This document shows positions 3,968-43,503 of a DNA stretch of 64,000 bases, one piece after another. Source of the stretch: Bradyrhizobium erythrophlei (GTDB lineage Bacteria; Pseudomonadota; Alphaproteobacteria; Rhizobiales; Xanthobacteraceae). The position numbers and the translations under genes are program-made. The stretch's first letter is position 1, and each line of letters starts with the position of its first letter. The stretch is taken from NCBI RefSeq assembly GCF_900142985.1, contig NZ_LT670849.1, positions 6,030,501-6,094,500 of the forward strand, in the 5' to 3' direction. A model generated the notes under the pieces. The model searched no databases. It was not told the origin of the DNA and saw only the letters and a program-made list of their open reading frames with translations.

Positions 3968-4005
3968 GCAATCTGCAGCACAGATTGCCCTCTCGAATCT
4001 ATTCG
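3968..4005 (+). promoter_or_regulatory. LysR-type operator/leader, copy A
   Basis: A perfect 8-bp inverted repeat GCAATCTG-CAGCA-CAGATTGC (3968-3988) contains the T-N11-A pattern of LysR sites. A second inverted repeat, CGAAT-CT-ATTCG, follows at 3994-4005, and then the conserved TTTGATGATC-CAAT stretch. It sits 144 bp after LysR-1 and 80 bp before the truncated mmgE/prpD start. The same element recurs at 5096-5133, 43466-43503 and, inverted, 14118-14155. Confidence 0.75.
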
Positions 4006-4085
4006 TTTGATGATCACAATCGATAGGGGCACGGTGCTTCGCGTGGAAGAGTATATCGATCGCATGGATCCGCCAGGGACATCAT

Positions 4086-4250
4086 ATGCTAATAAAGAAT
4101 TCGTCATCCCTCTCTACGGTAATCGCGATTGCTGGCTTTGCTGACCAAGCTGTTTCGACATCATTGAAGCCCGACGCGCGCAAGTTTTACAAGCGAAGCA
4201 CTCTGGACAGCTGGGATGAGCGATCTCTGCGCTTCCGGGAGCGCCGTTCC
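4086..4250 (+). pseudogene. Truncated MmgE/PrpD family gene (5' fragment)
   Basis: The first ~40 residues (MLIKNSSSLSTVIAIAGFAD, then KPDARKFYKR) match the start of the intact MmgE/PrpD protein at 43590. One base is then missing (AGCTGGGATG here against AGCTTGGGATG in the intact gene), which shifts the frame, and homology ends near 4250. About 1.25 kb of the gene is lost. With LysR-1 and operator A it forms a degraded duplicate of the 42.1-45 kb locus. Confidence 0.85.
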
Positions 4251-4273
4251 CTTCCGCTCGAAAGGATTTCTCG

Positions 4274-4529
4274 ATGCCGCAATCAATCTGCAATCGCGCC
4301 GCGTTGAGTCGGCAGGACGCAATTATCGCCGGCATAGCCGTATGGGCTCCGCAAGTCCTGTCGTCCGTCTCCAGTGCAGCGACGCCTTTGCGCTTAAAAA
4401 GTGCCGCACCTTGACGAGCTGGTTGTTCGCCTTGCCTGCGAGGCAGAGAAGAACTTTCCGATATCCAAAGTTCTCAACGCCGCTATCGGCATACTTGCGT
4501 TCACCAAAGATAAAGGATGGGGCCAATGA
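4274..4529 (+). pseudogene. Frameshifted remnant of a short gene upstream of the cupin
   Basis: The frame from ATG 4274 begins with a Tat/Sec-like leader (ALSRQDAIIAGIAVWAPQ) and stops after about 50 codons. A second frame, shifted by one base, continues as DELVVRLACEAEKNFPIS to a TGA at 4527-4529 that overlaps the cupin ATG (ATGA). The overlap suggests the two were once translationally coupled. I do not recognise the family. Confidence 0.45.
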
Positions 4530-4954
4530 CCCGCAACCATCAACCTGATCAGGCAGATTTTAGAGCGATCCTGCCTGAAGATATCGACTGGAAGCCGTTT
4601 CCGGCGTTTCCACCTGGGGCTCGTCTGGCGGTCGTCGTAGGCCACCCCACGGAACCCGGTCCTTACGTGGTCAGGGTCAAGGTGCCAGACGGCACGAAAC
4701 TGATGCCGCACAAGCATCCAGAGGATCGCATCTACACGGTCATGTCGGGCGTCTTTTACATCGGGCTCGGGGAGACGTTCGAGGGCGAAAAGGTGAAGGC
4801 CTATCCGCCGGGAAGCGTCATCGTTCTTCCAGGCGAAACCTGGCATTTTCATTGGGCGAAGTCCGGCGAATACGTCACGCAGGTGACGGCGATCGGACCA
4901 CTCGGCCTTGAATATCACGATCCACATGATGATCCACGCCGGCACAGCTCTTAG
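4526..4954 (+). CDS. Cupin-domain protein
   Basis: 142 residues from the ATG at 4526; the ATG at 4517 is possible, but AAAGGATGGGG is spaced correctly only for 4526. The first cupin motif is visible as PHKHPEDRIYTVMSGVFYIG (metal-binding His and Glu) and the second as PPGSVIVLPGETWHFHW. A single cupin domain of this size is typical of small metal-binding dioxygenase-like or ligand-binding cupins; substrate unknown. No signal peptide. It lies between the mmgE/prpD fragment and the MSAD gene, which has its own leader beginning 142 bp after the cupin stop, so co-transcription with MSAD is possible but not required. Confidence 0.8.
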   Translation: MTRNHQPDQADFRAILPEDIDWKPFPAFPPGARLAVVVGHPTEPGPYVVRVKVPDGTKLMPHKHPEDRIYTVMSGVFYIGLGETFEGEKVKAYPPGSVIVLPGETWHFHWAKSGEYVTQVTAIGPLGLEYHDPHDDPRRHSS

Positions 4955-5095
4955 CAATCCTTGCCGCAACGATGCTCATTGGCGGGCGGCGCAAAGAGTC
5001 GCATGAGCGACTGTGATCGGCAGCGGAGGAAAAATATCGCGCGCTGCTTGGCCGGTCCTTCTTGCTGTAATCATGCGATTTTGGTGCCAAATCGA

Positions 5096-5133
5096 GCGAT
5101 CTGCCGCACAGATTAGCCTCTCGAATTTATTCG
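5096..5133 (+). promoter_or_regulatory. LysR-type operator/leader, copy B (upstream of MSAD)
   Basis: GCGATCTG-CCGCA-CAGATTAG (5096-5116) keeps the inner ATCTG/CAGAT arms of copies A and C. CGAAT-TT-ATTCG follows at 5122-5133, then TTTGATGATCGCAATTGATG. Homology to copies C and D continues through GCGACAAAA and an AGATCAATCGC segment to about 5195, shortly before the MSAD ATG at 5213. This is the copy that drives an intact gene other than mmgE/prpD. Confidence 0.75.
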
Positions 5134-5212
5134 TTTGATGATCGCAATTGATGGGGACATGGTCCCTCTGGCGACAAAAACGAGATCAATCGCTCAACTA
5201 TGGAAAGTCATC

Positions 5213-5602
5213 ATGCCGCTCCTGCGCTTCGACCTCATCGAGGGACGCTCGGAACCTGAGCTGAAGAAAATCCTCGACGTCACGCACGAGGTGTTGCTCG
5301 AAACCCTCCACGTACCGAGAAACGATCGCTATCAGGTGGTACACGAGCACAAGCGTTCTCGCATGGTCATCGAGGATACGGGGCTCGGGTTCGCCAGATC
5401 TGACAAAATAGTTGTGCTCCAGATCACCAGCCGTCCACGAGAACGCGAAATGAAACAGGGCTTTTATCGTTTGCTGGTCGAAAGGCTTTCCGCCAGTTGC
5501 GGAATTTCACCAAGCGACGTGGTCGTGACTTTTGTGACAAACGCTGATGAGGATTGGTCATTCGGTGCAGGCCGAGCGCAGTTTCTGACTGGCGATCTAT
5601 AA
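5213..5602 (+). CDS. Malonate semialdehyde decarboxylase-like tautomerase
   Basis: 129 residues, the length of the malonate semialdehyde decarboxylase (MSAD) of Pseudomonas pavonaceae 170. The start is fixed at ATG 5213 because the family needs Pro right after Met as the catalytic amine. Counting Pro as 1, the residues known to matter in MSAD are all present: Pro1, Asp37 (in RNDRYQ), Arg73 and Arg75 (in TSRPRE). The C-terminus DWSFGAGRAQFLTGDL is also characteristic. The reaction would be malonate semialdehyde to acetaldehyde and CO2 in the cytoplasm. It stands behind operator copy B, the same leader found before the mmgE/prpD-caaD operon at 43.5 kb whose product it would consume. Two broken copies lie at 49497-49690 and 51105-51490. 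Confidence 0.85.
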   Translation: MPLLRFDLIEGRSEPELKKILDVTHEVLLETLHVPRNDRYQVVHEHKRSRMVIEDTGLGFARSDKIVVLQITSRPREREMKQGFYRLLVERLSASCGISPSDVVVTFVTNADEDWSFGAGRAQFLTGDL

Positions 5603-5740
5603 ACCTGCAGGGACAGAAGCCGAATTGGAGTTGCGGCGGACGCAGAAATTATTATTCGACACGCCTTCCTCCATAGTTTTGGAATCAACTGGAAGAAGTG
5701 TTGCTATAACGCAAACATCATTGAACACCAAGGAACGATC

Positions 5741-6721
5741 ATGACGATCACCACCAGGCTGACCAAGCATTTTGGTATCAAGCATCCGATTGTGCTGGCG
5801 CCCATGACTCCTGCTTCGGGAGGAGCTTTGGCATCGGCAGTAGCGGCAGCTGGAGGACTCGGGCTGTTGGGTGGCGGTTACGTCGACCGCGTTTGGTTCG
5901 AAGCCGAATCGGCAAAGGTCACGCGATCCGACGTTGGCGCCGGGTTTATCACCTGGACCATTCCCGAAGATCCGGGATTGCTTGACATCGCGCTGGAGCG
6001 GCATCCGCGTGCGATGATGTTGTCCTTCTCGGATCCGGGTCTGTATGCCGCTCGCATCAAGAAGGCTGGCGTACCGCTGATTTGCCAAGTGCATTGCCTG
6101 GATCACGCGTTCCGCGCGGTCGATGTCGGGGCGGATGTCATCGTCGCTCAGGGGACCGAGGCCGGTGGGCATGGCTGGGCGCTGCGTTCCACGATGCCAT
6201 TCGTTCCGTCAGTGGTGGATGCGTTGGCCGCACGGGCACCCGATGTTCTCGTGCTTGCGGCGGGCGGTATTGCGGATGGCCGGGGTCTCGCGGCGTCGCT
6301 CATGCTGGGAGCTGATGGTGTGCTGATGGGCACCAGGTTCTGGGCAACGCAGGAAGCTCTCATCCCGGATGCGGCAAAGACAATGGTGCTGGAAGCGACC
6401 GGGGACGAGACCATACGGACAAGCGTTTACGACGTCGTGCGGAGACGAGTGTGGCCGCCGGGCTATACCGGCCGGCTCATGAGGAACGATTTTATCGAGA
6501 GGTGGCAAGGTCACGAAAAGGAACTCGCACAAGTGCGCGGAGAGGAATTGCGTAAGGTTGAGGAAGCGCAGAATTCCGATGATTTCGAGATTGCCAACGT
6601 AACTGTCGGCGAGAGCATCGGGTTGATCCACGATATTCCGAAGGCCGGCGATCTGATCCATCGAATCGTTGCCGAGGCCTCCAACCGGCTGATGAAATTT
6701 GCCCCGGCGCTCGCTGCCTGA
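5741..6721 (+). CDS. Nitronate monooxygenase family flavoprotein (2-nitropropane dioxygenase-like)
   Basis: 326 residues from ATG 5741. A TIM-barrel FMN protein: the N-terminal strand HPIVLAPM, the Gly-rich AAAGGLGLLGGGY, the phosphate-binding region AQGTEAGGHG (His in the usual catalytic position) and AAGGIADGRGLAASLMLGAD followed by GTRFWATQEA. These are the class motifs of nitronate monooxygenases; several relatives act on other substrates, so the substrate is not certain. It lies 138 bp after MSAD and just before the molybdenum hydroxylase genes, with matching strand. A fragment of a close paralogue is at 41643-41873, and a more distant family member is at 47299. Confidence 0.85.
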   Translation: MTITTRLTKHFGIKHPIVLAPMTPASGGALASAVAAAGGLGLLGGGYVDRVWFEAESAKVTRSDVGAGFITWTIPEDPGLLDIALERHPRAMMLSFSDPGLYAARIKKAGVPLICQVHCLDHAFRAVDVGADVIVAQGTEAGGHGWALRSTMPFVPSVVDALAARAPDVLVLAAGGIADGRGLAASLMLGADGVLMGTRFWATQEALIPDAAKTMVLEATGDETIRTSVYDVVRRRVWPPGYTGRLMRNDFIERWQGHEKELAQVRGEELRKVEEAQNSDDFEIANVTVGESIGLIHDIPKAGDLIHRIVAEASNRLMKFAPALAA

Positions 6722-6749
6722 GGCAGTCGCCTGACATATCGGATACCCC

Positions 6750-7211
6750 ATGGTCAAATTGACGATCAACGGCGAACAGAAGTCGTTCGATGCGCCCGCG
6801 GACATGCCGCTGCTCTGGGTGCTGCGTGACATACTCGGCATGACCGGAACCAAGTTCGGCTGCGGCATTGCCCAGTGCGGCGCGTGTACGGTGCATATCG
6901 ACGGCAAGGCCATGCGCTCCTGCATGCTGCCGGTCGGCGCGGTGCGCGACCGCGCCGTCACCACCATCGAGGGCGTCGGCGCGTCGCCAGTTGGCGCGAA
7001 GGTGCAGAAGGCCTGGCTCGATCTCGAAGTGATCCAGTGCGGCTATTGCCAATCCGGGCAGATCATGGCGGCGGCAGCCCTGCTTGCGGCCACGCCCAAT
7101 CCCGATGACTCCGACATCGACGCGGCGATGGCGGGGAACATCTGCCGCTGCGGTACTTATGTGCGCATTCGCGCGGCAATCAAGCAGGCGGCGTCGCATC
7201 GCCAGTCGTAG
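6750..7211 (+). CDS. [2Fe-2S] subunit of a molybdenum hydroxylase (IorA-like)
   Basis: 153 residues. The first [2Fe-2S] site is a plant-ferredoxin type ([14 protein letters not shown], with a fourth Cys in MRSC). The second, all-helical site is [10 protein letters not shown] with NICRCGTY. This is the small subunit of xanthine-dehydrogenase-family enzymes of the isoquinoline 1-oxidoreductase/aldehyde oxidase type, and it passes electrons from the molybdenum centre towards the cytochrome. It starts 28 bp after the NMO gene and is followed 9 bp later by the large subunit, then the cytochrome, forming one operon. Confidence 0.93.
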
Positions 7212-7220
7212 GAGCTCGTC

Positions 7221-9404
7221 ATGACCGTTGCCGAGAGGAATTTCGAAGGTGTTGCGCGCCGCACGCTGCTGACCGGCGGTTTGGCGGGTGGATTTCTGTT
7301 CGCGTTCCATCTTCCGGTGCGGGCGCTGCGCGTTAATGAACCGCTGCAGCCTGTGGACGACACCGCCGGTAAGTTTGCGCCGAATGCCTTCATCCGCATC
7401 GATTCTTCCGGCAAGACCACGCTGGTGATGCCGCAGGTCGAGATGGGGCAGGGCGTCTATACCTCGATATCGATGATTCTGGCCGAAGAGCTCGACGCCG
7501 ATTTTTCGCAGGTGACGCTGGAGCACGCGCCGCCGAGCGACAAGCTCTATGGCAATCCGATGTTCGGCATTCAGGCCACCGGCAATTCCAATTCGATTCG
7601 GGCGTGGTGGAAGCCGTTGCGCGCGGCCAGCGCCAGCGCCCGAGCCATGCTGGTCCAGGCTGCCGCGCAGCAGTGGCAGGTCGATCCGGCAAGCTGCACC
7701 GCGGCGAATAGCGGAGTCACGCATCAAGCGAGCGGGCGGCGGCTTTCCTATGGCGCGCTGGCGCTTGCGGCGAGCAGCGAGGTGCCGCCAAAGGACGTCC
7801 CGCTCAGGGACCCCAAGGATTTCGTGCTGATCGGCAAGCCGCTGAAGCGGCTCGACACCCCCGACAAGGTCAACGGCAAGGCCGTGTACGGCATCGATGC
7901 GATGCTGCCCGGCATGAGGTTCGCAACCCTGAAGACCTGTCCGGTGTTCGGTGGCAAGGTCGCCAAGGTCGACGACAGCGCCGCCAGAAAAATCCCAGGC
8001 GTGCACAAGATCGTGGTGCTCGATGACATGGTCGCGGTGGTCGGCGATCACATGTGGGCGGCCAAGAAAGGCCTCGAAGCCCTGGTCGTGACCTGGGATG
8101 AGGGACCCAACGCGCGCGTCAGTTCGAAGGACATCTGGGATGCTTTGCGCACCGCCAGCGAAAAGAACGGTGCAGTCGCCAAATCCACCGGCGATATCGC
8201 CAAGGGACTTTCAACGGGTGACAAATTTGGGGCGTCGTACGAACTACCGTTCCTCGCGCATGCGACGATGGAGCCGGTCAACGCGACGGTTCATCTGAAG
8301 CCCGACTCCTGCGAAGTCTGGACCGGCACGCAGATCATGACCCGGGTGCAGTCGGAGGCGGCGAAGGCGGCCGGACTACCGATCGAGAAAGTCAGGATCT
8401 ACCAGCACCTGCTCGGCGGTGGCTTTGGCCGCAAGCTCGAACCCGACATGGTCGTCGCTGCCGTTCGGATCGCAAAGCATGTCGACGGGCCGGTCAAGGT
8501 CGTGTGGACCCGCGAGGAGGACATCCAGCACGACGTCTATCGTCCGATCTATCGCGATACCATTTCGGCCACGCTTTCCGGCGGCAAGATCGCCGGCTGG
8601 CAATACAAGGTCAGCGGTTCATCTATCATGGCGCGCTGGTTTCCGGCGGGGTTCCAGAACGGCGTCGACATCGACGGCGTCGATAGCGCCATCGACATTC
8701 CCTACGAGATACCCAACTTGCATGTCGAGTTTGTCCGGGCCGAGCCGCCAGCGGTTCCGACCGGGTTCTGGCGCGGCGTCGGTCCCAATAACAACGTGTT
8801 TGCGATTGAATGCTTCATGGACGAACTGGCGCGAAAGGCCGGTAAAGATCCCATCGAGTTCCGCCGGTCGATGCTTGGAAACCAGCCGCGGTTTCTCGCC
8901 GCGCTCAATCTGGCGGCGGAAAAATCCAACTGGGGCCAGCCGCTGCCGGCGCGCGTCGGGCGTGGAGTTTGCTTGCAGCCATCGTTCGCAAGCTTCATCG
9001 GAACCGTAGTGGAGGCGGAAGTCGACGAGCAGGGTGAGGTGGATCTGCGCCGCGTCACTTGCGCGGTCGACACCGGCATTGCCGTCAACCCCGATACCGT
9101 CATGGCGCAACTCGAGGGAGGGCTGATCTTCGGCCTGACCGCAGCACTCTACGGCGAGATCACCATCGACAAGGGCCGGGTGCAGCAATCCAACTTCAAC
9201 GACTATCGCATGCTCCGCATCGACCAAGCGCCCAAGATCGATGTTCACATCATCAAGAGCGGCGAGGCGCCCGGCGGCATCGGTGAGACCGGCGTGACGG
9301 CCGGCCCCCCGGCGCTACGCAACGCGATTTTCGCTGCGACAGGCATCGCGCTGCGGCGGCTTCCCATCGACCGGTACTTGATCGCAGCGGGGAATAAATC
9401 ATGA
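7221..9404 (+). CDS. Molybdopterin-binding subunit of an aldehyde/isoquinoline-type oxidoreductase (IorB-like), Tat-exported
   Basis: 727 residues. The N-terminus has a twin-arginine leader (ARRTLLTGGLAGGF), so the folded complex is probably carried to the periplasm with the small subunit. Typical molybdenum-subunit segments are visible: MPQVEMGQGVYTS, GGGFGRKLEPDM, GFWRGVGPNNNVFAIE and, near the end, GGIGETGVTAGPPALRNA with the catalytic Glu. Relatives oxidise N-heterocycles, aldehydes or nicotinate-like compounds with water as oxygen donor; the true substrate cannot be read from sequence. The stop codon overlaps the start of the cytochrome gene (ATGA at 9401-9404), evidence for translational coupling. 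Confidence 0.92.
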   Translation: MTVAERNFEGVARRTLLTGGLAGGFLFAFHLPVRALRVNEPLQPVDDTAGKFAPNAFIRIDSSGKTTLVMPQVEMGQGVYTSISMILAEELDADFSQVTLEHAPPSDKLYGNPMFGIQATGNSNSIRAWWKPLRAASASARAMLVQAAAQQWQVDPASCTAANSGVTHQASGRRLSYGALALAASSEVPPKDVPLRDPKDFVLIGKPLKRLDTPDKVNGKAVYGIDAMLPGMRFATLKTCPVFGGKVAKVDDSAARKIPGVHKIVVLDDMVAVVGDHMWAAKKGLEALVVTWDEGPNARVSSKDIWDALRTASEKNGAVAKSTGDIAKGLSTGDKFGASYELPFLAHATMEPVNATVHLKPDSCEVWTGTQIMTRVQSEAAKAAGLPIEKVRIYQHLLGGGFGRKLEPDMVVAAVRIAKHVDGPVKVVWTREEDIQHDVYRPIYRDTISATLSGGKIAGWQYKVSGSSIMARWFPAGFQNGVDIDGVDSAIDIPYEIPNLHVEFVRAEPPAVPTGFWRGVGPNNNVFAIECFMDELARKAGKDPIEFRRSMLGNQPRFLAALNLAAEKSNWGQPLPARVGRGVCLQPSFASFIGTVVEAEVDEQGEVDLRRVTCAVDTGIAVNPDTVMAQLEGGLIFGLTAALYGEITIDKGRVQQSNFNDYRMLRIDQAPKIDVHIIKSGEAPGGIGETGVTAGPPALRNAIFAATGIALRRLPIDRYLIAAGNKS

Positions 9405-10744
9405 GCGCTGGCCGCCGCATTCTCTTCAGCGTTGTCGTGATCGCCGCGGTTGTGGCGGCCGCGGCAATTTGGATCATCCGCGGCCCCGGTCCCATGGCCT
9501 TTGCGGGCGGCCAGAAAGTAGCACTCGCTGACTATAAGGCCGGCGATCCCACCGGTGTCCCGACTTCGCTCGCCAAGGCAAACCTCGTCGAGCGCGGGGC
9601 TTATCTGGCGCGGGCGGCGGATTGCATGGTCTGCCACACCACGCAGGGCGGCAAGGAATATGCCGGCGGCCTGGGCTTCAAGCTGCCGTTCGGCATGCTC
9701 TACTCGACCAACATCACCCCGGACAAAGAGACGGGCATCGGCAATTATACCGACCAGGATTTCCTCAACGCGGTCCACCGCGGAATCCGCCGCGACGGTG
9801 CGCGGCTTTATCCGGCGATGCCGTTCACGTCCTACACCTACATATCGGATGCGGACGCGCTGGCGATCAAGGCCTATCTGTTCAGCTTGGCGCCGGTACG
9901 CGCAGTTGCCCCTGCGAACACGCTGATGTTTCCGTTCAATCAGCGCTGGGCCATGAGTTTCTGGACCGTGATGTTCAATCCGGATGTCCGCTTCGAACCC
10001 GACACGTCGAAAAGTCTGGAATGGAATAGGGGCGCTTATCTCGCCGAGGCACTGGCGCATTGCGGCGAATGCCATACGCCGCGCAACCTGGCGTTTGCGC
10101 TGAACAACCGCAAGAAGTTCGGCGGCGCGCTGACGGCAGGTTGGCGCGCCTTCAATATCAGTTCGGACAAGGCCACCGGCGTTGGCGCGTGGAGCGATCA
10201 AGATCTGATCTCCTATCTGTCGATTGGACATGCTGCGGGCCACGGTACCGCTTCGGGGCCGATGGGTGAGGCAGTGGATCAGAGCTTCAGCCAGTTGGCG
10301 CCGGAAGACATCCGCGCGGTCGTGGCCTATTTGCGCACGGTACCAGCGACGGCCTCATCCGATCTGCCGGCGACGCTTGCGCCAGCCGCGCCGGCTTCGC
10401 ACCGAGTTAGCGGCACGCCGGATCCGCGGGGCAAGATGGTGTTCGAAGGCGCCTGCGTCAGTTGCCATGGCTGGACCGGCGAGAGCCCGATCTCGCCCTT
10501 AGCCACCCTCACCGGAGCATGGGCGGTCAACGATCCCAGCGGGACAAATGTTGTCCAGGTGGTGCTTTCCGGCACCAGGCGGTTAACGCCGGAGGACGCC
10601 GTCTCGATGCCTCCGTTCGGCAACGCCTATTCCGATGCCGAGATCGCAGCTCTTGCCAATTACGTCATCGGGCGCTTTGGAACCAAGGCATCGCAAGTCA
10701 CGGCGCCGGACGTTGCGGAGTTGAGGAAACAAACGTCGCAATAA
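9401..10744 (+). CDS. Membrane-anchored tri-haem cytochrome c, electron acceptor of the molybdenum enzyme
   Basis: 447 residues. An uncleaved or cleavable N-terminal membrane segment (ILFSVVVIAAVVAAAAIWII) is followed by three c-type haem sites: CMVCH near residue 75, CGECH near 220 and CVSCH near 351. This three-haem layout is that of the cytochrome subunits of membrane-linked alcohol and aldehyde dehydrogenases. It overlaps the molybdenum subunit gene by 4 bp. The three gene products would form a periplasmic dehydrogenase feeding the respiratory chain. In this context an alcohol or aldehyde upstream of a carboxylic acid such as chloroacrylate is a reasonable guess, but only a guess. Confidence 0.92.
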   Translation: MSAGRRILFSVVVIAAVVAAAAIWIIRGPGPMAFAGGQKVALADYKAGDPTGVPTSLAKANLVERGAYLARAADCMVCHTTQGGKEYAGGLGFKLPFGMLYSTNITPDKETGIGNYTDQDFLNAVHRGIRRDGARLYPAMPFTSYTYISDADALAIKAYLFSLAPVRAVAPANTLMFPFNQRWAMSFWTVMFNPDVRFEPDTSKSLEWNRGAYLAEALAHCGECHTPRNLAFALNNRKKFGGALTAGWRAFNISSDKATGVGAWSDQDLISYLSIGHAAGHGTASGPMGEAVDQSFSQLAPEDIRAVVAYLRTVPATASSDLPATLAPAAPASHRVSGTPDPRGKMVFEGACVSCHGWTGESPISPLATLTGAWAVNDPSGTNVVQVVLSGTRRLTPEDAVSMPPFGNAYSDAEIAALANYVIGRFGTKASQVTAPDVAELRKQTSQ

Positions 10745-10899
10745 GGGCGACGGGGGTATCCTCGGTGGCCGCCGCACAAATCGGTCCGACGGTCCACCGG
10801 CAATCCGTGCGCGCAGGCAGATTACGGCGAATTGCGTTGACGCCGTCGAGCGGGGATACGAGATAACCGGTACCATCGGTCCACTGCTCAGGAGAAGTT

Positions 10900-12099
10900 A
10901 TGAACGCGCCGCCAAAAATCGATCACATCACGGCACATTCTGACAGCGACATTCTACACTGGCTGACAAACGATACTCGCGACGAACGCTTCCTTGACAA
11001 TATTTTCGCTGAGCTGTGTTTCCGGCTCCAGCGAACGGGCATTCCGGTCAAGCGGGCGACGCTTCATTTCATGATCCTCCATCCGCAATGGCTCGGCTCC
11101 CGGATGATGTGGACCGACGGGATGCGCGAGGCCGAGCTTAGGAGAGTCGACTACGATATCAGGGAGCGCTCCGAATTCGTCGACAGTCCCGCCAACGAAC
11201 TCAATGACGGGGCCACCGAGGTGCGCGAGAATCTCGAACGTGATCCATCGCTGAGCCGCAAGCATGCCGTCTACGACGAGATGCGGGCGAGAGGCCTCAC
11301 CGACTATGTGGCGTGGCCGATGTACCATACATTCGGCAAGCGGCACATGGTGACCTTTGCGACCGACCGACCCGGAGGCTTCGACGATGCGCATATCGCC
11401 GATCTGTTGAAAGTGTTGCCGGTTTTGGCGCTGGTCAGCGAAATCCGTATCAAGAACCGGCTGGCGCGAACGTTGCTCGAAACCTATGTCGGGTCGCACG
11501 CCAGCGAGCTCATCCTGGCCGGCGCCACGAGGCGCGGGACCGGCACGACGGTACGCGCCGCCATCATGATCTGCGATCTGCGCGATTTCACAAGGATCTC
11601 CGACAACTGGCCGCGCGATGACGTCATTGATCTCCTGAACGGCTATTTCGACGCGATGTCGGAGCCGATTGCGCGGCATGGCGGCGAAATACTGAAATTC
11701 ATCGGCGACGGCCTGCTCGCCATTTTTCCGCTCAGCGAGCCTCAAGCCTGCGGAAATCTGCTGCATGCCGTGACTGAGGCCCGTCAGGCCATGATTGCGC
11801 TGAACGAAAAGAACGGCGAGACCGGCCGTGCGCCGCTGAATTACGGCATCGGCGTCCATGTCGGAGACGTCATGTACGGCAATATCGGATCGCGCACCCG
11901 GCTCGACTTCACCGTCATCGGTCCCGCCGTCAACATGGCAGCGCGCCTCGAAACCCTCACCAAGCAATTGGGAAGAACGGTGCTGCTCTCGCGCGCGTTC
12001 GCCGACTTCGTCGAAAACGAATTCGATCTCGAACGCGTCGGCGAATTTTCGGTCCGCGGCTTCAACGACCCGATCGAGTTGTTCGCGTATCACGGCTGA
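10900..12099 (+). CDS. Class III adenylate cyclase with N-terminal GAF-like region
   Basis: 399 residues; ATG 10900 follows AGGAGAAG. The catalytic domain occupies about residues 210-395: metal-binding Asp in MICDLRDFTRIS and in FIGDGLLAIF, Lys before it (ILKFIGDG) and Asp in [19 protein letters not shown], the pair that usually means ATP rather than GTP. The first 200 residues are soluble and resemble the GAF-like N-terminus seen in many Bradyrhizobium cyclases. The product would be cAMP. A fossil of the same gene, with about 870 bp missing from the middle, lies at 21049-21369 and includes similar flanks. No partner gene is adjacent. Confidence 0.88.
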   Translation: MNAPPKIDHITAHSDSDILHWLTNDTRDERFLDNIFAELCFRLQRTGIPVKRATLHFMILHPQWLGSRMMWTDGMREAELRRVDYDIRERSEFVDSPANELNDGATEVRENLERDPSLSRKHAVYDEMRARGLTDYVAWPMYHTFGKRHMVTFATDRPGGFDDAHIADLLKVLPVLALVSEIRIKNRLARTLLETYVGSHASELILAGATRRGTGTTVRAAIMICDLRDFTRISDNWPRDDVIDLLNGYFDAMSEPIARHGGEILKFIGDGLLAIFPLSEPQACGNLLHAVTEARQAMIALNEKNGETGRAPLNYGIGVHVGDVMYGNIGSRTRLDFTVIGPAVNMAARLETLTKQLGRTVLLSRAFADFVENEFDLERVGEFSVRGFNDPIELFAYHG

Positions 12100-12644: not shown

Positions 12645-12878
12645 TTAGAAACCGCTCTTCAACCGCTTCCGATATTCCGCAACCGGCAAGCCTCCCCAGC
12701 CCCAATTGTCGAGGTCGACTTCTTCGATGATGACGAAGGTGGACCCCAGTGGCTTGTTCAAGACATCGAGCATCAGCTTGCTGGCACCTTCGATCAGCTT
12801 TGCCTTCTGCTCGCGTGTGATGCTATGCTGACCGGGCTCGGTGCCTTCCCGGGTGATTTCAATCGTGACGATCGGCAT
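12645..12878 (-). CDS. 4-oxalocrotonate tautomerase-family protein
   Basis: 77 residues, beginning Met-Pro so that Pro1 can act as the catalytic base after Met removal. The family features are MPIVTIEITREG, STFVIIEEVDLDNWGWGG and VAEYRKRL, the last two being typical of the slightly longer 4-OT group often encoded next to redox enzymes. Substrate unknown; keto-enol tautomerisation or a related hydrolytic reaction is expected. It lies about 120 bp downstream of wrbA on the same strand and probably belongs to the same transcript. A broken relative with its middle missing is at 47041-47165. Confidence 0.88.
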   Translation of the reverse strand: MPIVTIEITREGTEPGQHSITREQKAKLIEGASKLMLDVLNKPLGSTFVIIEEVDLDNWGWGGLPVAEYRKRLKSGF

Positions 12879-12999
12879 CGCGGTGCTCCCAGAGTTCTCG
12901 TCATCGCTCCGCCGAACGGCGTGATATCACCTCGCCGCCGGCACGATGTCCTTTTACAAGTATGTCTATGTCGATTGGGGTTCGACGATTGCGATCTTT

Positions 13000-13599
13000 C
13001 TAGCCGAAGATCTTGTTGGCGATCTCGGCAACATGGCGACCTTGAAAGCGTGCCCCTGCGAGCTCGTTCTCGCTCGGCTGGCGGCTGCCGTCGAGGCCCG
13101 CGATGGTGGTGGCGCCGTAGGGCGTGCCACCGGTAATCTCACCCATCTCGGTCAACCCACCGAAGCTATAGGGCAGGCCCACGACCACCATGCCGAGATG
13201 GAGTAGGTTGGTGATGGTCGAGAACAGGTTGACTTCCTGGCCGCCATGTTGGCTGGCGGTCGAAGTAAAGGCAGAGCCTACCTTGCCGTTGAGCGCGCCC
13301 TTCGCCCAAAGTCCGCCGGCTTGATCGATGAAGGTGGCCAGCTGTGAGGCCATCCGGCCGAACCGCGTAGGCCCACCAATGATGATTGCGTCATAGTTGG
13401 CCAGATCCTCGATCTTGGCAACGGGGGCGGCCTGGTCGAGCTTGAAGTTCGCGGCCTTGGCCACTGCTTCAGGCGCGGTTTCCGGAACGCGTTTGACATC
13501 GACCGTAGCGCCGGCCTCACGCACGCCGGCGGCCACGGCGCCCGCCAATTTCTCGACATGGCCGTAGGTGGAATAATATAGAACTAGTACCTTGCTCAT
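13000..13599 (-). CDS. wrbA: NAD(P)H:quinone oxidoreductase, WrbA type
   Basis: 199 residues from the ATG at 13599, which follows AAGGAG at ideal spacing; the longer frame to 13791 is not used. Flavodoxin-like fold: [14 protein letters not shown] binds the FMN phosphate, [14 protein letters not shown] and [11 protein letters not shown] are WrbA hallmarks. It reduces quinones by two electrons, avoiding semiquinone stress. Immediately upstream (13700-13946) is a gene fossil, so its present promoter may be inherited from that gene or from the leader at 14.1 kb. Confidence 0.93.
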
Positions 13600-13699
13600 T
13601 GGAGTCTCCTTGTGAACGAGCTTCGAGGGAAAGAGGATTTTGATCGGGCGCGGACGGCCGATACGACGGGGGTTAGACGCGCGGTCAAGATCAGGTGTC

Positions 13700-13946
13700 C
13701 TTGCGCGCCAAGGCAGACGAACAGGGCCGGAGCTCCGCCGGTCATCAGCAACACCACCGATGAGCCGGCTGGATGGCGACCGAGCGCACATCGCCGATCA
13801 CGCCGGTCGTCGCGTTTCACGTACAGCTCGACTCCGTTCGACGCTGGACCCATCGCCTCTTCGATACGCTTCAACGGTTGAATCGGCGCCGGCGCATCGG
13901 CCAGGACGACGCGGGGCATGCGGTCAAGGGTGTCCGATAGGGACAT
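13700..13946 (-). pseudogene. D-cysteine desulfhydrase / ACC-deaminase-like gene with its centre deleted
   Basis: From ATG 13946 the first 47 residues match the start of PLP-dependent D-cysteine desulfhydrase-like proteins (MPRVVLADAPAPIQPLKRIE, then ELYVKRDD). After about 14 unrelated residues the frame reads [15 protein letters not shown], which is the usual C-terminal segment of the same family (HTGGAPALF). Roughly 240 codons, including the PLP lysine, are therefore missing. The frame then runs on without a normal end to 13596. Confidence 0.75.
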
Positions 13947-13982: not shown

Positions 13983-14033
13983 TCAGTTGTCTTCATTTTC
14001 CGTAAGGCGCGATGTCGACTTTTCCATCAGCAT
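13983..14033 (-). pseudogene. Start of an mmgE/prpD copy, 16 codons
   Basis: The minus-strand frame MLMEKSTSRLTENEDN and its 5' leader align with the start of the intact MmgE/PrpD gene at 43590 (MLMKNSTSPSTVNA). The reading frame ends after 16 codons and the desulfhydrase fossil begins 36 bp further on. It shows that the leader at 14118-14155 was copied together with the beginning of its gene. Confidence 0.7.
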
Positions 14034-14117
14034 GTGAGCGTCCTTGGACAAGTCCAATACGATTGATCTGCTTTTGTCGCTCAACGGACCGTGCCTTCAT
14101 CAATTGCGATCATCAAA

Positions 14118-14155
14118 CGAATAGATTCGAGAGGGCAATCTGTGCTGCAGATAGC
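14118..14155 (-). promoter_or_regulatory. LysR-type operator/leader, copy D (inverted)
   Basis: Read on the minus strand: GCTATCTG-CAGCA-CAGATTGC (14155-14135), then CGAAT-CT-ATTCG (14129-14118) and TTTGATGATCGCAATTGATG. Similarity to copy C continues through GCGACAAAA to the ATG at 14033. It now stands upstream of fossils, with wrbA and the 4-OT gene further downstream on the same strand, so it could still drive those two genes. Confidence 0.7.
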
Positions 14156-14159
14156 TCGA

Positions 14160-14916: not shown

Positions 14917-15504
14917 TCACGGTGTCCTTAGCAGCGCAAAAAACGGCCGAATGACTCCGGTCAGCAGGGCGCGGTCGGGATTGGTGCGGGCCAGAACCCG
15001 GAGGCCCAGGACGATGCTCAGAGCGAGCCGCGCGATGTCGGCTGGAGGTTGTGAGCTAAGGATTGATCCGTCGCGCTGCCCAGCCGCGACACAGTCGCGG
15101 ACGTATTTTTCGATTTCATCAAAGACCTCGGTTACAACATCGCGGAAGCCCTGGTCGTGCGACGCAACCTCCAACGCCGTGTTCACGACAAAACAGCCCT
15201 TGTGAAGTCTGTCGGCGAGCAATTCTTCAACGGTCGCGTCAAAGTACCGCTCCAATGCGCGTAAGGGCGGATCATCTCCTCCGAAGATTGCCGAGCAGGT
15301 TTCGAGCGCCAGACGGACATACCGATCGAGCACGAGACGGTAGATGGCTCTCTTATCGCCGAACGCATTGTAGAGGCTTGGCGTAGTCATTCCGGTGTGG
15401 TCGGCGAGGTCGCGCATCGATGTCGCCTCATAGCCGTTGTTCCAGAAACGCTGCATTGCGGCTTCGAGTACCGTGTCTTCATCGAATTCCCTGGGCCTGG
15501 CCAT
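14917..15504 (-). CDS. TetR-family repressor (probable regulator of lctP)
   Basis: 195 residues. N-terminal helix-turn-helix: EDTVLEAAMQRFWNNGYEAT then TGMTTPSLYNAFGDKRAIY. The C-terminal ligand domain ends with ALSIVLGLRVLARTNPDR. It is divergent from the lactate permease gene at 15687; the space between holds a clear promoter overlapped by inverted and direct repeats (15540-15607). It most likely represses both itself and lctP-uxaA. A frameshifted copy of its first ~95 codons and of the same promoter lies at 19255-19637. Confidence 0.9.
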   Translation of the reverse strand: MARPREFDEDTVLEAAMQRFWNNGYEATSMRDLADHTGMTTPSLYNAFGDKRAIYRLVLDRYVRLALETCSAIFGGDDPPLRALERYFDATVEELLADRLHKGCFVVNTALEVASHDQGFRDVVTEVFDEIEKYVRDCVAAGQRDGSILSSQPPADIARLALSIVLGLRVLARTNPDRALLTGVIRPFFALLRTP

Positions 15505-15539
15505 CTAGATCCGTCTGTCAATTAGCGAGAGCAAATAAC

Positions 15540-19254: not shown

Positions 19255-19539
19255 GTGTATGCAGCCGTGCGGCGGTCGCATCGAAGTACTGCTCCCAATG
19301 CGCGTAAGGGCGGGTCATCGCCTCCGGAGATCGCGGAGCAGTTTTCGAGCGCCAGACGGATATAGCGATCGAACATAAGACGGGTAGATGGTTCTCTTAT
19401 CGCCGGCGCATTGTACAGGCTTGGCGTAGTCATTCCGGCGAGGTCGCGCATCGGCGTCGCCTCATCGCCGTTGTTCCAGAAAACGTAACATTGCGGCTTC
19501 GAGCACCGTGTCTTCATCGAATTCCCTGGGCATGGCCAT
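19255..19539 (-). pseudogene. Truncated, frameshifted tetR copy
   Basis: Aligned with 15504-15215, the start codon, the MARPREFDEDTVLEA region and the MTTPSLYNA segment are recognisable. There are at least three indels (a small deletion before the TTPSLYN region, an extra G near 19382, an extra C near 19287). The effector domain is absent. Confidence 0.88.
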
Positions 19540-19609
19540 CTAGATCCGTCCGTTACTGGCGAGAGCGATAACTCACGGTCGTGTTTTATTACGATCGATA
19601 AAAAAAGCA

Positions 19610-20917: not shown

Positions 20918-21048
20918 ATTAGCTCGCGTCACGTAGTGCGGCGCCGCGCGGCTGAGTCCAACCGGCGCCGCAACCCTTCCACCGGCAAGGGGATTCGCCG
21001 TGACTTGGCCGCTCCTGGCCGATCCAGGTTACCACCCAGGAACAAGCT

Positions 21049-21369
21049 ATGAACGCGCCGCCAAAAATCGATCATGTCGCCGCACATTCTGACGGTGACG
21101 TTCTAAACTGGCTGACAAACGACACTCGCGACGAGCGTCCTTGACATGTAGGGCAATATCGGGTCGCGCAGCCGGCTCGACTTCACCGTCATTGGTCCCG
21201 CCGTCAACATGGCAGCGCGCCTCGAAACCCTCAAGCAATTGGGAAGGACGGTGCTGCTGTCGCGCGCGTTCGCGGACTTCGTCGAAAGGGAGTTCGATCT
21301 CGAACGCATCGGCGAATTTCCAGTCCGCAGCTTCAACGACCCGATCGCTTGTTCGCGTATCACGGCTGA
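21049..21369 (+). pseudogene. Adenylate cyclase fossil with central deletion
   Basis: The first ~100 bp match the cyclase gene at 10900-10998 (MNAPPKIDH start). The sequence then jumps to what corresponds to 11872 (GGCAATATCGG) and follows the 3' end to the stop, so about 870 bp are missing. TAG and other changes near the junction and small indels in the tail rule out function. The ATG upstream region also resembles that of the intact gene. Confidence 0.9.
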
Positions 21370-26810: not shown

Positions 26811-27045
26811 AAGCTTATGAATTTGGCGTAGCCAGGCGAAGCGATTTGAACTGAACACCATATCTGTCGCGACGATAAGACTGAGAGCTGCCACCGTCAG
26901 TCAGCGGCGCTGATCGATCCGGTGTAGCCATGCCATGCAATCAGCAGAGCTCGTGCGCGCGAGGCAAACCGTCCACCAATCGCCGGAGAAGATACGGTTA
27001 TCTCGAAAAAGCGTTCGATGGCGACACTAGTCATTGCCATCCGTC
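26811..27045 (+). repeat. Dispersed ~240-bp noncoding repeat, copy R1
   Basis: Begins AGCTTATGAATTTGG, then GCGAAGCGATTTGAACTGAAC, TATCTGTCGCGACGATAAGA and near the end GAGAAGATACGGTTATCTCG. Two inverted pairs, TATC-N9-GATA and AGATA-N4-TATCT, are kept in all three copies (also 28053 and 35575). No coding frame. It lies between gst and the DUF1348 gene stop. Confidence 0.85.
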
Positions 27046-28052: not shown

Positions 28053-28375
28053 AGTTTATGAACCTGGTGTGTGCAGGCGAAGCGATTTGAACTGAACGTC
28101 TTATCTGTCGCGACGATAAGAGCGCCAATCAGCGGCGTTGAATAGATCCGGCGTGGCCATGCTGCGCAATCAGCAGAAACTAGGAACACGGAACAAGCAG
28201 TCCATCAATCTCCAGAGAAGATATGGCTATCTCGAAAAAGCATGACTATTTCGAAAAATTGTTTGATAGCTACGCCTGTAGCTGCCTAGCCCGGACTGAC
28301 TCGATCGCAAATGTGCGACGCAGATAAGCTCATGCGATGGGCGAGTACGCACAAAACCTCTGAAGCGTCTGCAGC
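28053..28375 (+). repeat. Dispersed ~240-bp noncoding repeat, copy R2, with leader of the DUF485-like gene
   Basis: Parallels 35575-35895: AGTTTATGAACCTGG, GCGAAGCGATTTGAACTGAAC, GAGAAGATATGGCTATCTCG, then GACTCGATCGCAAATGTGCGACGCAGATAAGCTCATGC, matching the leader upstream of 35877 at the far end. Both GATA-type inverted pairs are kept. Confidence 0.85.
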
Positions 28376-33705: not shown

Positions 33706-33767
33706 GAAGATTTCCTCCGCTGGGTGCTCTGTTCGGTGGTGTCTATCGATCGGTTTGCGTAACCGAA

Positions 33768-35513: not shown

Positions 35514-35574
35514 GACGTGCACTCCGGCCTTATTTCTTATCGGCACGTAAAAATTGGCGATCGTTCCTCCGCCT

Positions 35575-35876
35575 AGCTTATGAATTTGGTGTAACGAAGC
35601 GAAGCGATTTGATCTGAATGGCGTATCTGTTGCGGCGATAAGACTTGGAGTTAAAGCTCTCCAACCGCCAATCCGCGGTTGAATCGATCCCGCCGGGCTC
35701 TCCCAACGCAGTCAACAGCACCCGAGAACGCCGAGTAAACCGCCCGCCGATCTCCAGAGAAGATATGGCTATCTCGATAAAGCGTTTGATGGCGGTGTCA
35801 GTCGTTGTCTAGCCTGACCCACATCGATCGCAAACAAAATATGCGACGCAGACAAGCTAATGCAGGGGAGGTGAGT
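35575..35876 (+). repeat. Dispersed ~240-bp noncoding repeat, copy R3, between phaC and the symporter operon
   Basis: AGCTTATGAATTTGGTG, then GCGAAGCGATTTGATCTGAAT, TATCTGTTGCGGCGATAAGA and GAGAAGATATGGCTATCTCG. In this copy the block lies in a divergent promoter region, so it probably is regulatory DNA. TATC-N9-GATA and AGATA-N4-TATCT pairs are conserved with R1 and R2. Confidence 0.8.
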
Positions 35877-36131: not shown

Positions 36132-36134
36132 GTC

Positions 36135-40655: not shown

Positions 40656-41624
40656 GTGGATCGAGTCGACGCCATGAAGGTCTTCATCGCGGCCCTCGAC
40701 GAGGGTGGCTTGAGGAAGGCCGGGCGCAAGTTGGGGCGGTCTCCTGCTGCGATAAGCCGAGCGCTTGCGTTTCTTGAGGCTCATGTTGGCGTTACCCTCC
40801 TTCACCGCACGACGCGTTCGTTCAAATTGAGCGAAGCGGGCGAACGGTACGCGGTCGTATGCCGCCGCGTCATTTCAGATCTCGAAGAAGCTGACCTTGT
40901 TGCAGCGGGCGAACGGTCGGCTCCCCGCGGCACGCTGACCATAACGGCTCCAGTTGCGGCAGGCGAAGACGTCTTGCGTCCGGTTTTGGACGCCTTCATG
41001 GACGCCTATCCGACCGTTTCGGTTAGATTGCTTCTGCTGGACAGGCCGGTTAGCCTGATCGATGAAGGCGTCGATCTTGCCCTGCGAGTTGCCCATTTGA
41101 CGGATTCCACACACGTGGCAATCCGGTTGGGCGAGGTTCGGCGTGTCGTAGCGGCATCGCCTCGCTACTTGTCGACGCATCCGAAAATCGAAGAGCCCGC
41201 TGATCTTGCAAAACACAAGATCATTGCGATGGCTCACTTCGGAATCGATTCCTGGAGCTTTTCGCCGGTGAGGGGATCATCGATCCCTCGCTCGGTTCAA
41301 TTCTCGCCCCGCTTGGTGGTCAACAGTGTTCGTGGTGCCGTTGCCTCAGCCGTCGAAGGACGCGGCATCACCCGACTTTTTTCTTATCATATTGCGGAGC
41401 AAGTTTCGCAAGCCACGCTGCAAATCCTTCTCGCGCACGACGAGCCCGCCGCGGTGCCCGTGCACCTCATTTCCCCGCAAGGCCGGCTGGCCGTTCCGAA
41501 GGCCCGGGCATTCGTGGATTTCGCCGTGCCTCGCCTCAAGGCGCATTTTTCTCGCCTTGCCAACAATTCCGCGGGGCAGCAACGCGGCTTTCAACTGTGT
41601 CGCGAAAAAGTGCCTTCCGACTAG
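40656..41624 (+). CDS. LysR-family regulator
   Basis: 322 residues from the GTG at 40656. Helix-turn-helix DAMKVFIAALDEGGLRKAGRKLG with recognition helix SPAAISRALAFLE; the effector domain has RRVVAASPRYL, then a VASAVEGRGITRLFSYHI segment usual for the CrgA-like branch. It differs strongly from LysR-1 and LysR-2. No divergent gene is next to it; immediately downstream lies an NMO fragment, suggesting its original target gene has decayed. Confidence 0.9.
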   Translation: MDRVDAMKVFIAALDEGGLRKAGRKLGRSPAAISRALAFLEAHVGVTLLHRTTRSFKLSEAGERYAVVCRRVISDLEEADLVAAGERSAPRGTLTITAPVAAGEDVLRPVLDAFMDAYPTVSVRLLLLDRPVSLIDEGVDLALRVAHLTDSTHVAIRLGEVRRVVAASPRYLSTHPKIEEPADLAKHKIIAMAHFGIDSWSFSPVRGSSIPRSVQFSPRLVVNSVRGAVASAVEGRGITRLFSYHIAEQVSQATLQILLAHDEPAAVPVHLISPQGRLAVPKARAFVDFAVPRLKAHFSRLANNSAGQQRGFQLCREKVPSD

Positions 41625-41642
41625 CGACGAGCAGCCGTTGTC

Positions 41643-41873
41643 GGGCCCGATGTTGTTGTCGTTCAAGGTACGGAAGCGGGAGGCCTGGCCAAACGGCACC
41701 CGCCAACGTTGCCGCTCATGCTGCCGGTCGTGAACGCTCGGAGCAACGCGTCCCCGGACGTCATCGACGTTGCTGCGGGCGGTATAGCAGATGGGCGCGT
41801 TCTTACTGCAGCTCACATGCTGGACGCCCAGGAGGTTCTGATCGACGGTCGCTTTTGGGCGACACAGGAGCCC
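41643..41873 (+). pseudogene. Internal fragment of a nitronate monooxygenase gene
   Basis: One frame reads GPDVVVVQGTEAGGLAKR, then DVAAGGIADGRVLTAAHML and DGRFWATQE. These align with residues about 130-210 of the NMO at 5741 (VIVAQGTEAGGHG, AAGGIADGRGLAAS, GTRFWATQE). The N- and C-terminal parts are missing. The key His of EAGGHG is replaced (EAGGLA). Confidence 0.88.
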
Positions 41874-42117
41874 CATCCATCCCAACGCAAAGGCCAGGGT
41901 GGTGGCCGCTTCGGGCGACGGGAACGACTTCGATATCTGTCCTGGAGATATGGGTATTTTTTCTAGAGATACCTTGTCATGGCCGATCCTGCCCACCGCT
42001 CTAAATTCGAAGGAGAGTTGGATTCAGACTTGAAAAGCGGGCCGCTGCGGTCACATGATAATCGTTCGTTCAAGCGCGTTAATGCCGAACCCCTCACTTT
42101 TGAAGATAGGACCCGTT

Positions 42118-43047
42118 ATGGACGCAACCGATCTGAAGGTCTTTGAGGCAGTTGCCCGGCACGGCAGCATGAATCGAGCGGCAGCTGAGCTAAACACTGT
42201 GCAATCCAACGTTACTGCGCGAGTGAGGGCGTTGGAGCTTGAGCTTGGGATCCTTCTATTCCAGCGGCATGCACGCGGCGTAAAGGTCACTCCGGCCGGG
42301 CGCCGTATGCTTCCCTTTTCGGCACGCATATCCAAACTGCTTAACGACGCCAAGTCGGCTGCCAGGGATGACGGCATTCCCAGCGGTGTGCTGGAAGTCG
42401 GTACGCTGGAAACGACTGCGGCGCTTCGGCTCCCGTCCGTGCTCGCAAGCTTTACGAAGGCCTACCCAAAGGTGCGCCCTGTGGTCACGACGGGAACGAC
42501 CTGCAGTCTCATCGAGGACGTTGTTGAATGCAGACTAGAGGGCGCGTTTGTTGCGGGGCCGGTTGACCATCCAGATTTGCAACAGGAAGGCCTCTTTCGC
42601 GAGGAGCTTGTCCTGGTGACGCCTCGCTCAATTCGAGGCATTGAAGATCTTTCCTCGATCAACGAATTGAAAACCATTGTTTTCCGCGTTGGTTGCTCAT
42701 ACCGAGCAAAGCTGGAAAGCCTGCTGAGCAACGTTGGAATACTCGTTGCACAGCCTCTGGAATTCGGTTCGATCGAAGCGATTCTGGGCTGTGTGGCCGC
42801 GGGAGTCGGGATCACGTTGTTGCCCAAGGGGGTAGTCGTCCAGGCTTGGCGAGACGGTCAGGTTGCCGTGCATGAACTGGAACCCGAGTTTGCTGAAGTG
42901 GAGACTGTGTTCATTCGGCGCACAGACGGCTACGTGTCCAGTGCGCTTTCGGCCTTCCTCCAGATTGTACGACCAGCTACCGGATTGCATGTAGCCGTCG
43001 CCGAACGGCCTTATTCAGCGAAGGTGGTACCTATGCCGCAGGGTTAG
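42118..43047 (+). CDS. LysR-family regulator, copy 2 (LysR-2)
   Basis: 309 residues from ATG 42118 (MDATDLKVFEAVARHG). Nearly identical to LysR-1 at 2937 in the DNA-binding part and highly similar throughout. Its C-terminus is about 14 residues longer. It is followed by operator copy C and the intact mmgE/prpD-caaD operon, so it is the probable activator of that operon, and by virtue of the shared operator also of MSAD. The effector is presumably a pathway acid; not shown by sequence. Confidence 0.92.
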   Translation: MDATDLKVFEAVARHGSMNRAAAELNTVQSNVTARVRALELELGILLFQRHARGVKVTPAGRRMLPFSARISKLLNDAKSAARDDGIPSGVLEVGTLETTAALRLPSVLASFTKAYPKVRPVVTTGTTCSLIEDVVECRLEGAFVAGPVDHPDLQQEGLFREELVLVTPRSIRGIEDLSSINELKTIVFRVGCSYRAKLESLLSNVGILVAQPLEFGSIEAILGCVAAGVGITLLPKGVVVQAWRDGQVAVHELEPEFAEVETVFIRRTDGYVSSALSAFLQIVRPATGLHVAVAERPYSAKVVPMPQG

Positions 43048-43465
43048 CCCTCTCCTCCGAGCGAGTTCTCCACACCGCTCGCTGACCAGGGCGCTGTCAT
43101 GCGAAAAAAATACGGGTCGAATACGGAAAATTAGCGCGGCAAGCTTGGATCTGGACGAGGGGGCCGACGAAAGCAAGGCGTAATTCCCCTGAGCTTCAAG
43201 ATCTGCGCTGGAGCCGGAATTGGGAGCCATCGTCAAACCCGCAGGCTGGCATTGATTTTGTTTTCAGTAGATGCGAACCGATGTCCTTTCGGTGGTTACA
43301 GATGTCTTGGGATGCTGATCCGGTTCGCAAGCCTGCTTGAATGGCAGCGATAATTGATCACCAATTCGCCCGAGTTGATGGATTCTGCTTCTGAGTGACG
43401 ATACGTCGCTCGATGTTGTCAGGTAATGTCGTTGCCATAATCAGACGGCTTTCAAAGTAAGCCGA
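43048..43465. other. Intergenic stretch before operator copy C
   Basis: About 418 bp between LysR-2 and the operator, with no convincing coding frame and no mapped promoter element. In the LysR-1 copy the corresponding gap is only 143 bp, so DNA was gained here or lost there. Confidence 0.4.
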
Positions 43466-43503
43466 GCAATCTGCGCCACAGATTGCCTTCTCGAATCTAT
43501 TCG
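43466..43503 (+). promoter_or_regulatory. LysR-type operator/leader, copy C (caaD operon)
   Basis: GCAATCTG-CGCCA-CAGATTGC (43466-43486), perfect 8-bp arms, then CGAAT-CT-ATTCG (43492-43503) and TTTGATGATCGCAATTGATG. The leader continues with GCGACAAAAGCCAGATTGATCGC up to the mmgE/prpD start at 43590. It is the reference copy because all genes behind it are intact. Confidence 0.78.

Follow-up and report, generated by a model that had tools for sequence, protein, structure and literature searches.

In catabolic operons governed by LysR-type regulators, the regulator binds twice ahead of the transcription start, at a T-N11-A recognition site approximately 65 bp away and at an activation site near -35. 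A leader that resembles this scheme recurs in a 64-kb stretch of the Bradyrhizobium erythrophlei genome (contig NZ_LT670849.1, positions 6,030,501 to 6,094,500; hereafter the window), where it precedes, among others, the operon for CaaD (trans-3-chloroacrylic acid dehalogenase) and the gene for MSAD (malonate semialdehyde decarboxylase). As in the known operons, a regulator with HTH_1 and LysR_substrate domains adjoins its predicted target, and an ATC-N9-GAT dyad is followed approximately 22 bp downstream by a second dyad; unlike in them, lysR and its target run in the same direction, and the operator is present in five copies in a single genome. Very probably, a single type of predicted LysR operator-promoter links caaD with MSAD in this organism. 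More fully, we assign a probability of about 0.7 to the reading that the leader is the operator-promoter of prpD-caaD1-caaD2, that it would be recognised by the adjacent LysR protein, and that fragments of this segment were copied, one of which (copy B) captured MSAD.

CaaD is built from two 4-OT-like subunits in which β Pro-1, α Arg-8, α Arg-11 and α Glu-52 have known roles, as do Pro-1, Asp-37, Arg-73 and Arg-75 in MSAD. The solved enzymes (PDB entries 1s0y and 2aag) presumably come from Pseudomonas pavonaceae 170 and its trans-3-chloroacrylate pathway, and the window proteins align with them over 76 residues of CaaD α, 65 of 72 of CaaD β and 128 of 129 of MSAD, with all of the named residues present. 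One difference lies in the α-subunit, where Ser rather than the Pro of 1s0y_A follows Met (45043-45051), as in each of the six leader-bearing genomes of the genus, while the β-subunit keeps Pro-1. The α-subunit Pro-1 of CaaD is not known to be essential; with Ser in its place, the enzyme here is a putative CaaD. As a further difference from P. pavonaceae 170, the caaD operon here opens with an MmgE/PrpD-family gene (prpD). The original prediction had placed copy C of the leader before the caaD operon, which is right for the operon, although its first gene is prpD and caaD1 and caaD2 come next; genes for an MR/MLE enolase-superfamily protein, an NMO-like protein and a SnoaL-like protein also belong to it, and lysR2 lies on the other side of copy C. 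Both caaD genes were recovered by a PF01361 search of the genome. The gene behind copy B was correctly named as MSAD, 2aag being its closest PDB entry; of 15 candidates scored across the genome, it alone matches MSAD at E ≤ 1e-40. Copies B and C do, as claimed, precede intact genes of consecutive steps.

The same ATC-N9-GAT core is found in the nod box, the operator of the LysR protein NodD in Bradyrhizobium (excerpt of PMC5596368); unlike at a nod box, the neighbours here are not nod genes. LysR1 and LysR2 have their best NCBIfam match in PtrR (NF047711), at 233-236 bits and thus far below the equivalog cut-off of 400, and the E. coli PtrR site TTCACnAATnGAGAA, as given in an excerpt of PMC9068703, differs from the leader. 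Propagation and capture of promoters have been described in bacteria (Matus-Garcia 2012; Oren 2014; both as cited in excerpted text of PMC11111574). As in those cases, a second gene has apparently acquired a promoter by copying; unlike in them, the putative promoter is a regulated operator-promoter, the gene that it reached belongs to the same pathway, and copies before dead genes keep their cores. A literature search returned no paper on a CaaD or MSAD regulator among the matches listed. The locus offers a specific candidate regulator-operator pair, apparently recognisable from Alpha- to Betaproteobacteria, as well as a compact natural case of catabolic regulon growth: one genome, taken with its relatives, displays the ancestral arrangement, the copied operators, the capture junction and the dead remnants.

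The leader comprises a 51-bp core that consists of an ATCTG-N5-CAGAT dyad, a CGAAT-N2-ATTCG dyad and TTTGATGATC. With up to three mismatches allowed, a 35-column pattern derived from both dyads (ATCTG-N5-CAGAT-N6-CTCGANTNTATTCG) finds exactly four sites in the window; 100 shuffles averaged 0.00. The four copies first reported (A to D; Table 1) are therefore real and far beyond chance. For the genome as a whole (7.5 Mb, one contig) the count rises to five, with no match to the reversed pattern; all five lie inside 91 kb, and the fifth, copy E, is at genome position 6125402, approximately 31 kb past the right end of the window. All five contain the first dyad, but the 8-bp arms ascribed to it are confined to A and C, those of B, D and E measuring 5 bp. 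The second dyad is intact in A-D, as described, and has one base changed in E, which has also lost 3 nt. GCGACAAAA, thought to be part of every leader, is present in B, C and D and missing from A.

Table 1. Features of the window discussed in the text (window coordinates).
Feature	Position	Strand	Basis or remark
lysR1, copy of caaD-cluster LysR regulator	2937..3824	+	PF00126+PF03466
Leader copy A, core	3965..4015	+	alignment and pattern match
prpD 5' relic behind copy A	4086..4249	+	1-nt gap; homology ends near 4250
Cupin gene, intact open reading frame behind copy A	4526..4954	+	no close counterpart near caaD in relatives searched
Leader copy B, core	5093..5143	+	homologous block about 5063-5193
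MSAD, intact	5213..5602	+	PDB 2aag, E 4.2e-44, 128/129 aa aligned
NMO gene	5741-6721	+	behind MSAD of copy B
2Fe-2S-like gene	6750-7211	+	named by eye, no domain scan
Molybdopterin-binding gene	7221-9404	+	behind MSAD of copy B
Cytochrome c gene	9401-10744	+	behind MSAD of copy B
4-OT-type tautomerase downstream of copy D	12648..12878	-	sequence comparison
WrbA/flavodoxin-like gene downstream of copy D	13003..13599	-	domain scan
Relic, D-cysteine desulfhydrase-family gene	13599..13946	-	N-terminal piece 43%/46 aa, C-terminal piece 62%/16 aa
16-codon prpD 5' relic behind copy D	13986..14033	-	sequence comparison
Leader copy D, core (inverted)	14108..14158	-	alignment and pattern match
Second LysR-like gene of ancestral cluster	40656..41624	+	7/75 first residues identical to LysR1/LysR2
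NMO relic	41595..41870	+	NMO gene at same place in 4/5 relatives; not seen in G039
Dyad upstream of lysR2	41932..41973	+	read by eye; similar sequence in 5/5 relatives, not upstream of lysR1
lysR2, regulator linked to caaD operon	42118..43047	+	PF00126+PF03466 domain scan, comparison with relatives
Leader copy C, core (ancestral copy)	43463..43513	+	alignment and pattern match, conserved in relatives
Tentative promoter of copy C: -35 TTGATG, 17 nt, -10 CACGAT	43505..43533	+	weak; read from sequence and alignment
MmgE/PrpD-family gene (prpD), first of operon	43590..45014	+	PF03972+PF19305
caaD1 (α-subunit)	45043..45273	+	PDB 1s0y_A, E 1.7e-39, full 76 aa aligned
caaD2 (β-subunit)	45290..45508	+	PDB 1s0y_B, E 2.5e-27, 65/72 aa aligned
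Enolase-superfamily (MR/MLE) gene	45673..46782	+	domain scan
Relic of tautomerase like 12648-12878	47044..47174	+	two short matches, E 1.4e-4
MSAD 3' fragment	49429..49627	-	sequence comparison
Ancestral-cluster MSAD, broken	51108..51490	-	reading frame shifts near residues 15-20
Aldehyde dehydrogenase, upstream partner of MSAD in five relatives	51650..53308	-	PF00171

Conservation across the genus indicates which copy is the original. Five other genomes carry one leader each, always in the order lysR-leader-prpD-caaD1-caaD2-MR, and judged from this arrangement copy C is the ancestral site. The corresponding cluster of the window spans 40.6-53.3 kb, with its MSAD broken and its NMO, which lies between two lysR genes, reduced to a relic. 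These counts come from a pattern search, genus-wide blastn, with three candidates scored per genome, having overlooked B and E in the organism's own genome. Nine of 265 genomes matched at up to three mismatches and six exactly; the other three, with one differing sequence each at exactly three mismatches, were dropped as chance, and the reversed control matched once, in G193 (labels of this kind denote individual genomes). The leader is thus not widespread before unrelated genes. A scan of GTDB genome contigs for exact matches to the leader gave three contigs, G193 and G241 not being among them; the organism's own genome may lie outside that set.

Outside the genus, a position-weight profile of the core was built from copies A-D and the five relatives, with related copies down-weighted and copy E excluded, and was run on both strands of 18-21 kb stretches from all 12 plasmid records with a caaD1 homologue. 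Its best position fell upstream of prpD and pointed towards it in ten of ten Burkholderiaceae records. These contain six distinct site sequences and several near-identical strains, and so represent fewer than ten independent cases. The score was 29.3 in two Caballeronia records (maximum of 300 shuffles, 6.8) and 3.9-7.8 in eight Paraburkholderia records; nine of the ten scored higher than any of 60 shuffles of their own locus, the exception being L104 (3.9 versus 4.4). A LysR protein of 64-65% identity adjoins caaD2 in 9/10, and by eye a common operator frame can be read, ATC-N9-GATA-N4-TATC followed by TTCGYTTGAT, from which two of the ten vary. No profile match was found in the two records with distant caaD1 homologues, one from Rhodococcus (55%) and one from Sphingomonas (44%), where neither such a prpD nor such a lysR was found within the 18 kb read. 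Six genomes of the genus thus place the leader between lysR and prpD-caaD, and Burkholderiaceae have a recognisable counterpart, in agreement with the original view of a LysR-type operator-promoter: very probably it is that of the caaD operon and a predicted site for the linked LysR.

Its position relative to the genes is also informative. The core ends approximately 69-76 nt upstream of the start codon in A-D, and the gene-proximal part is variable. The tentative promoter of copy C would place the dyad centres near -64 and -42; a sigma-70 consensus scan gave no match there, and a sigma-54 reading of GGCAC was rejected by eye, its -12 element lacking GC. Inverted repeats within approximately 130 nt of the start codons could mark a segment that acts as RNA, the 5' leader of the transcripts serving as riboswitch or attenuator. 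We consider this very improbable, given that the dyad spacing suits a LysR operator, that the conserved part stops well short of the start codons, and that an Rfam scan of the window found no family at gathering score.

Copies A and C each follow a lysR gene. These genes had been called near-identical, which overstates their likeness: comparing the products one way gives 85.7% identity over 293 aa, and the reverse comparison gives 82.1% over 313 aa. Both exceed the Pfam cut-offs for an N-terminal HTH_1 and a C-terminal LysR_substrate domain. Only 6 of the first 75 residues differ and dN/dS between the genes is 0.216, from which we infer that both proteins probably remain functional and share a recognition site. 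The dyad upstream of lysR2 is a possible autoregulatory site.

Several observations weigh against the assignment of the leader to LysR control of caaD. Five genomes of the genus have a LysR of 59-66% identity and lack the leader. The Burkholderiaceae scores are low outside Caballeronia, so that the weight there lies in the position of the match. G374, from another genus of the family, has prpD-caaD1-caaD2 (caaD1 84%) with no leader and no such lysR in the 19 kb read; a caaD operon can therefore exist without LysR-leader control. The -10 hexamer of the tentative promoter is poor. The cupin gene that copy A faces has no close counterpart near caaD in any relative searched. Trees of the leader and of lysR leave the order of copying open: B+E is supported at 100 and the G115-G093-G193 group at 100 and 95, and the nodes that place A, B, C and D reach 45-74. 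Separately, a plasmid search with LysR2 (best 20 of 28 records) led to five neighbourhoods that were read, with caaD in two (L086, L087) and none in three, and a LysR of 60-65% identity is thus by itself no sign of a caaD cluster.

The case for capture rests on copy B. In five relatives MSAD lies behind the aldehyde dehydrogenase gene, whose product we take to be of the CoA-acylating semialdehyde dehydrogenase type, and is oriented towards the caaD operon. No leader was found in the 220 bp read upstream of MSAD in nine relatives and G040, and the pattern search of the 265 genomes gave no further leader in any MSAD-bearing genome. The MSAD of G040 is 92% identical in amino acid sequence, and the DNA match to the window begins only 22 nt before the ATG. 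Copy B would therefore consist of the caaD leader joined to the ribosome-binding-site region of MSAD, unless G040 has lost its leader. A homologous leader thus stands before a non-homologous gene whose relatives lack it, as capture would have it, with leader loss in G040 as the alternative.

That the sequences are homologous follows from their extent. Identity between copy B and the orthologous leaders in G039 and G241 is 83-84% over 124-132 bp, and between copies B and C it is 75% over 132 bp; with homology over approximately 100 bp that includes non-site positions, spread by duplication, as first proposed, is borne out. Separate origins of similar LysR sites before MSAD and caaD are accordingly very improbable. 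They would find some encouragement in other ATC-N9-GAT dyads upstream of MSAD near LysR genes of 58-66% identity (G205, G176, G191, G244), and in a 27-nt stretch upstream of MSAD in G115 that matches leader A at 81% (E 0.26) and lacks the full dyad. The dyads of those four genomes were rejected as instances of the leader, being absent from the leader profile's best four hits per locus.

In G374, the NMO, 2Fe-2S-like, molybdopterin and cytochrome c genes follow caaD2 just as they follow MSAD behind copy B, and MSAD is divergent from the whole series (locus L089, 4221-12042, prpD-caaD1-caaD2-NMO-2Fe-2S-like-molybdopterin-cytochrome c). The operon behind copy B therefore looks like a rearranged caaD operon with MSAD in first place, and the arrangement suggests that a molybdenum enzyme is part of the pathway.

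The remaining copies differ in what was copied with the leader. The block of A comprises lysR, leader and the 5' part of prpD, that of D leader and the 5' part of prpD, and that of B the leader alone; E, upstream of an MSAD start fused to a cytochrome c piece, is a decayed duplicate of copy B and the MSAD 5' end (core 47/48 and flanks 61/89 identical to B). The ends of the blocks differ in A, B and D, where a mobile promoter cassette would have shared ones. Alignment resolves the blocks as unequal fragments of one parent segment rather than a uniform cassette, and the ready-made promoter cassette first envisaged is not supported, the blocks being unequal in extent and relics lying behind three copies (A, D and E) out of five. 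The same variation makes it highly unlikely that the leader belongs among small mobile or repeat elements (MITE/REP-like) and carries a promoter by chance, as five similar copies, one of them inverted, might suggest; moreover, exactly one copy occupies the same place in each of five other genomes, and leader C had no match in plasmid DNA, no search having been aimed at terminal repeats or target duplications.

It might also be argued that only C works, and B perhaps by chance, which would make A, D and E inert remnants of segmental duplication and subsequent decay. The broken genes behind A, D and E, the lost bases and altered dyad of E, and other decayed duplicates in the window, among them three copies near 26.8, 28.1 and 35.6 kb, accord with such debris. 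We nonetheless regard this explanation as unlikely: B lies upstream of the genome's sole strong MSAD match, and the cores of A and D have changed far less than their flanks and the dead prpD pieces. In comparison with G039, copy A is identical at 51/51 positions of the core, 51/70 of the untranslated region and 127/149 of the prpD piece, and copy D at 50/51, 61/74 and 33/48, respectively. Copy B is less strict (core 46/51 against G039), and copy C shows the same trend against G193 (core 46/51, flanks 45/81, Fisher p 1.8e-5). Synonymous divergence between lysR1 and its G039 counterpart is 0.281, which implies a chance of approximately 1e-6 for an untouched 51-bp stretch such as the core of A. 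The contrast between cores and surroundings suggests that the A and D operators are still used, and argues that selection, for whichever gene, has probably kept them until now or until recently.

Homology of the cupin gene region behind A to its counterparts in three of seven other genomes (G093, G115, G193; 87-88%) begins at 4398, and those counterparts are remote from caaD, either on different contigs or at a distance of 1.4 Mb. The tautomerase downstream of D has relatives of 67-70% identity within the caaD neighbourhood in nine of ten Burkholderiaceae plasmid clusters, and one of 76% approximately 33 kb from caaD in G039, the sole match among seven other genomes. For the D-cysteine desulfhydrase-family relic behind D, the reference was a gene from the caaD neighbourhood of a Paraburkholderia.

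In our preferred reading, namely capture of MSAD by a copied caaD operator-promoter, the product of lysR2, and probably also that of lysR1, would recognise the leader of prpD-caaD1-caaD2, with the ATC-N9-GAT dyad serving for recognition near -65 and the second dyad, beside -35, for activation. Fragments of the lysR-leader-prpD segment would have been copied within approximately 91 kb, and copy B would have been joined to the ribosome-binding-site region of the MSAD gene that heads the NMO/molybdopterin/cytochrome operon. The step after CaaD would thereby have come under the same control, and the MSAD of the ancestral locus would have decayed, while A, D and E came to head broken genes and the operator cores of A and D stayed nearly unchanged. 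This reading predicts that LysR binds and activates, that caaD and MSAD are co-induced and that A and D remain in use, and the whole suggests a small gene circuit widened by copying its switch. More tentatively, the caaD pathway may have been dismantled and rebuilt by way of this switch, the dead MSAD, NMO and tautomerase being replaced behind B (MSAD, NMO) and D (tautomerase), and the operators being selected as promoters of their new neighbours or as decoys that tune LysR.

Some further observations concern the surroundings. A weak match to the caaD operator profile (53510-53560, minus strand; score 4.6, fifth best in the window) lies approximately 200 bp upstream of the aldehyde dehydrogenase gene. 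Near copy E, locus L011 contains two copies (4431-4481 and 8293-8343) of another ATCT...CGATAAGAGTATC...TTTATTCGTTTGACC site of similar architecture. Decayed duplicates, named by eye, pair 10895-12076 with 21044-21347 (adenylate cyclase-like) and 15252-15518 with 19295-19553 (TetR-like), and duplication followed by decay thus seems common in this region. A second dispersed leader-like family with LysR-operator-like architecture (e.g. ATCTCCAGAGAAGATATGGCTATCTCGATAAAGC) occurs at 26812-27012, 28053-28241 and 35575-35783, with a fourth match, from a partly loose query, at genome position 6118685; in G193 the family is represented directly before the gene orthologous to the LysR-like one at 40656.

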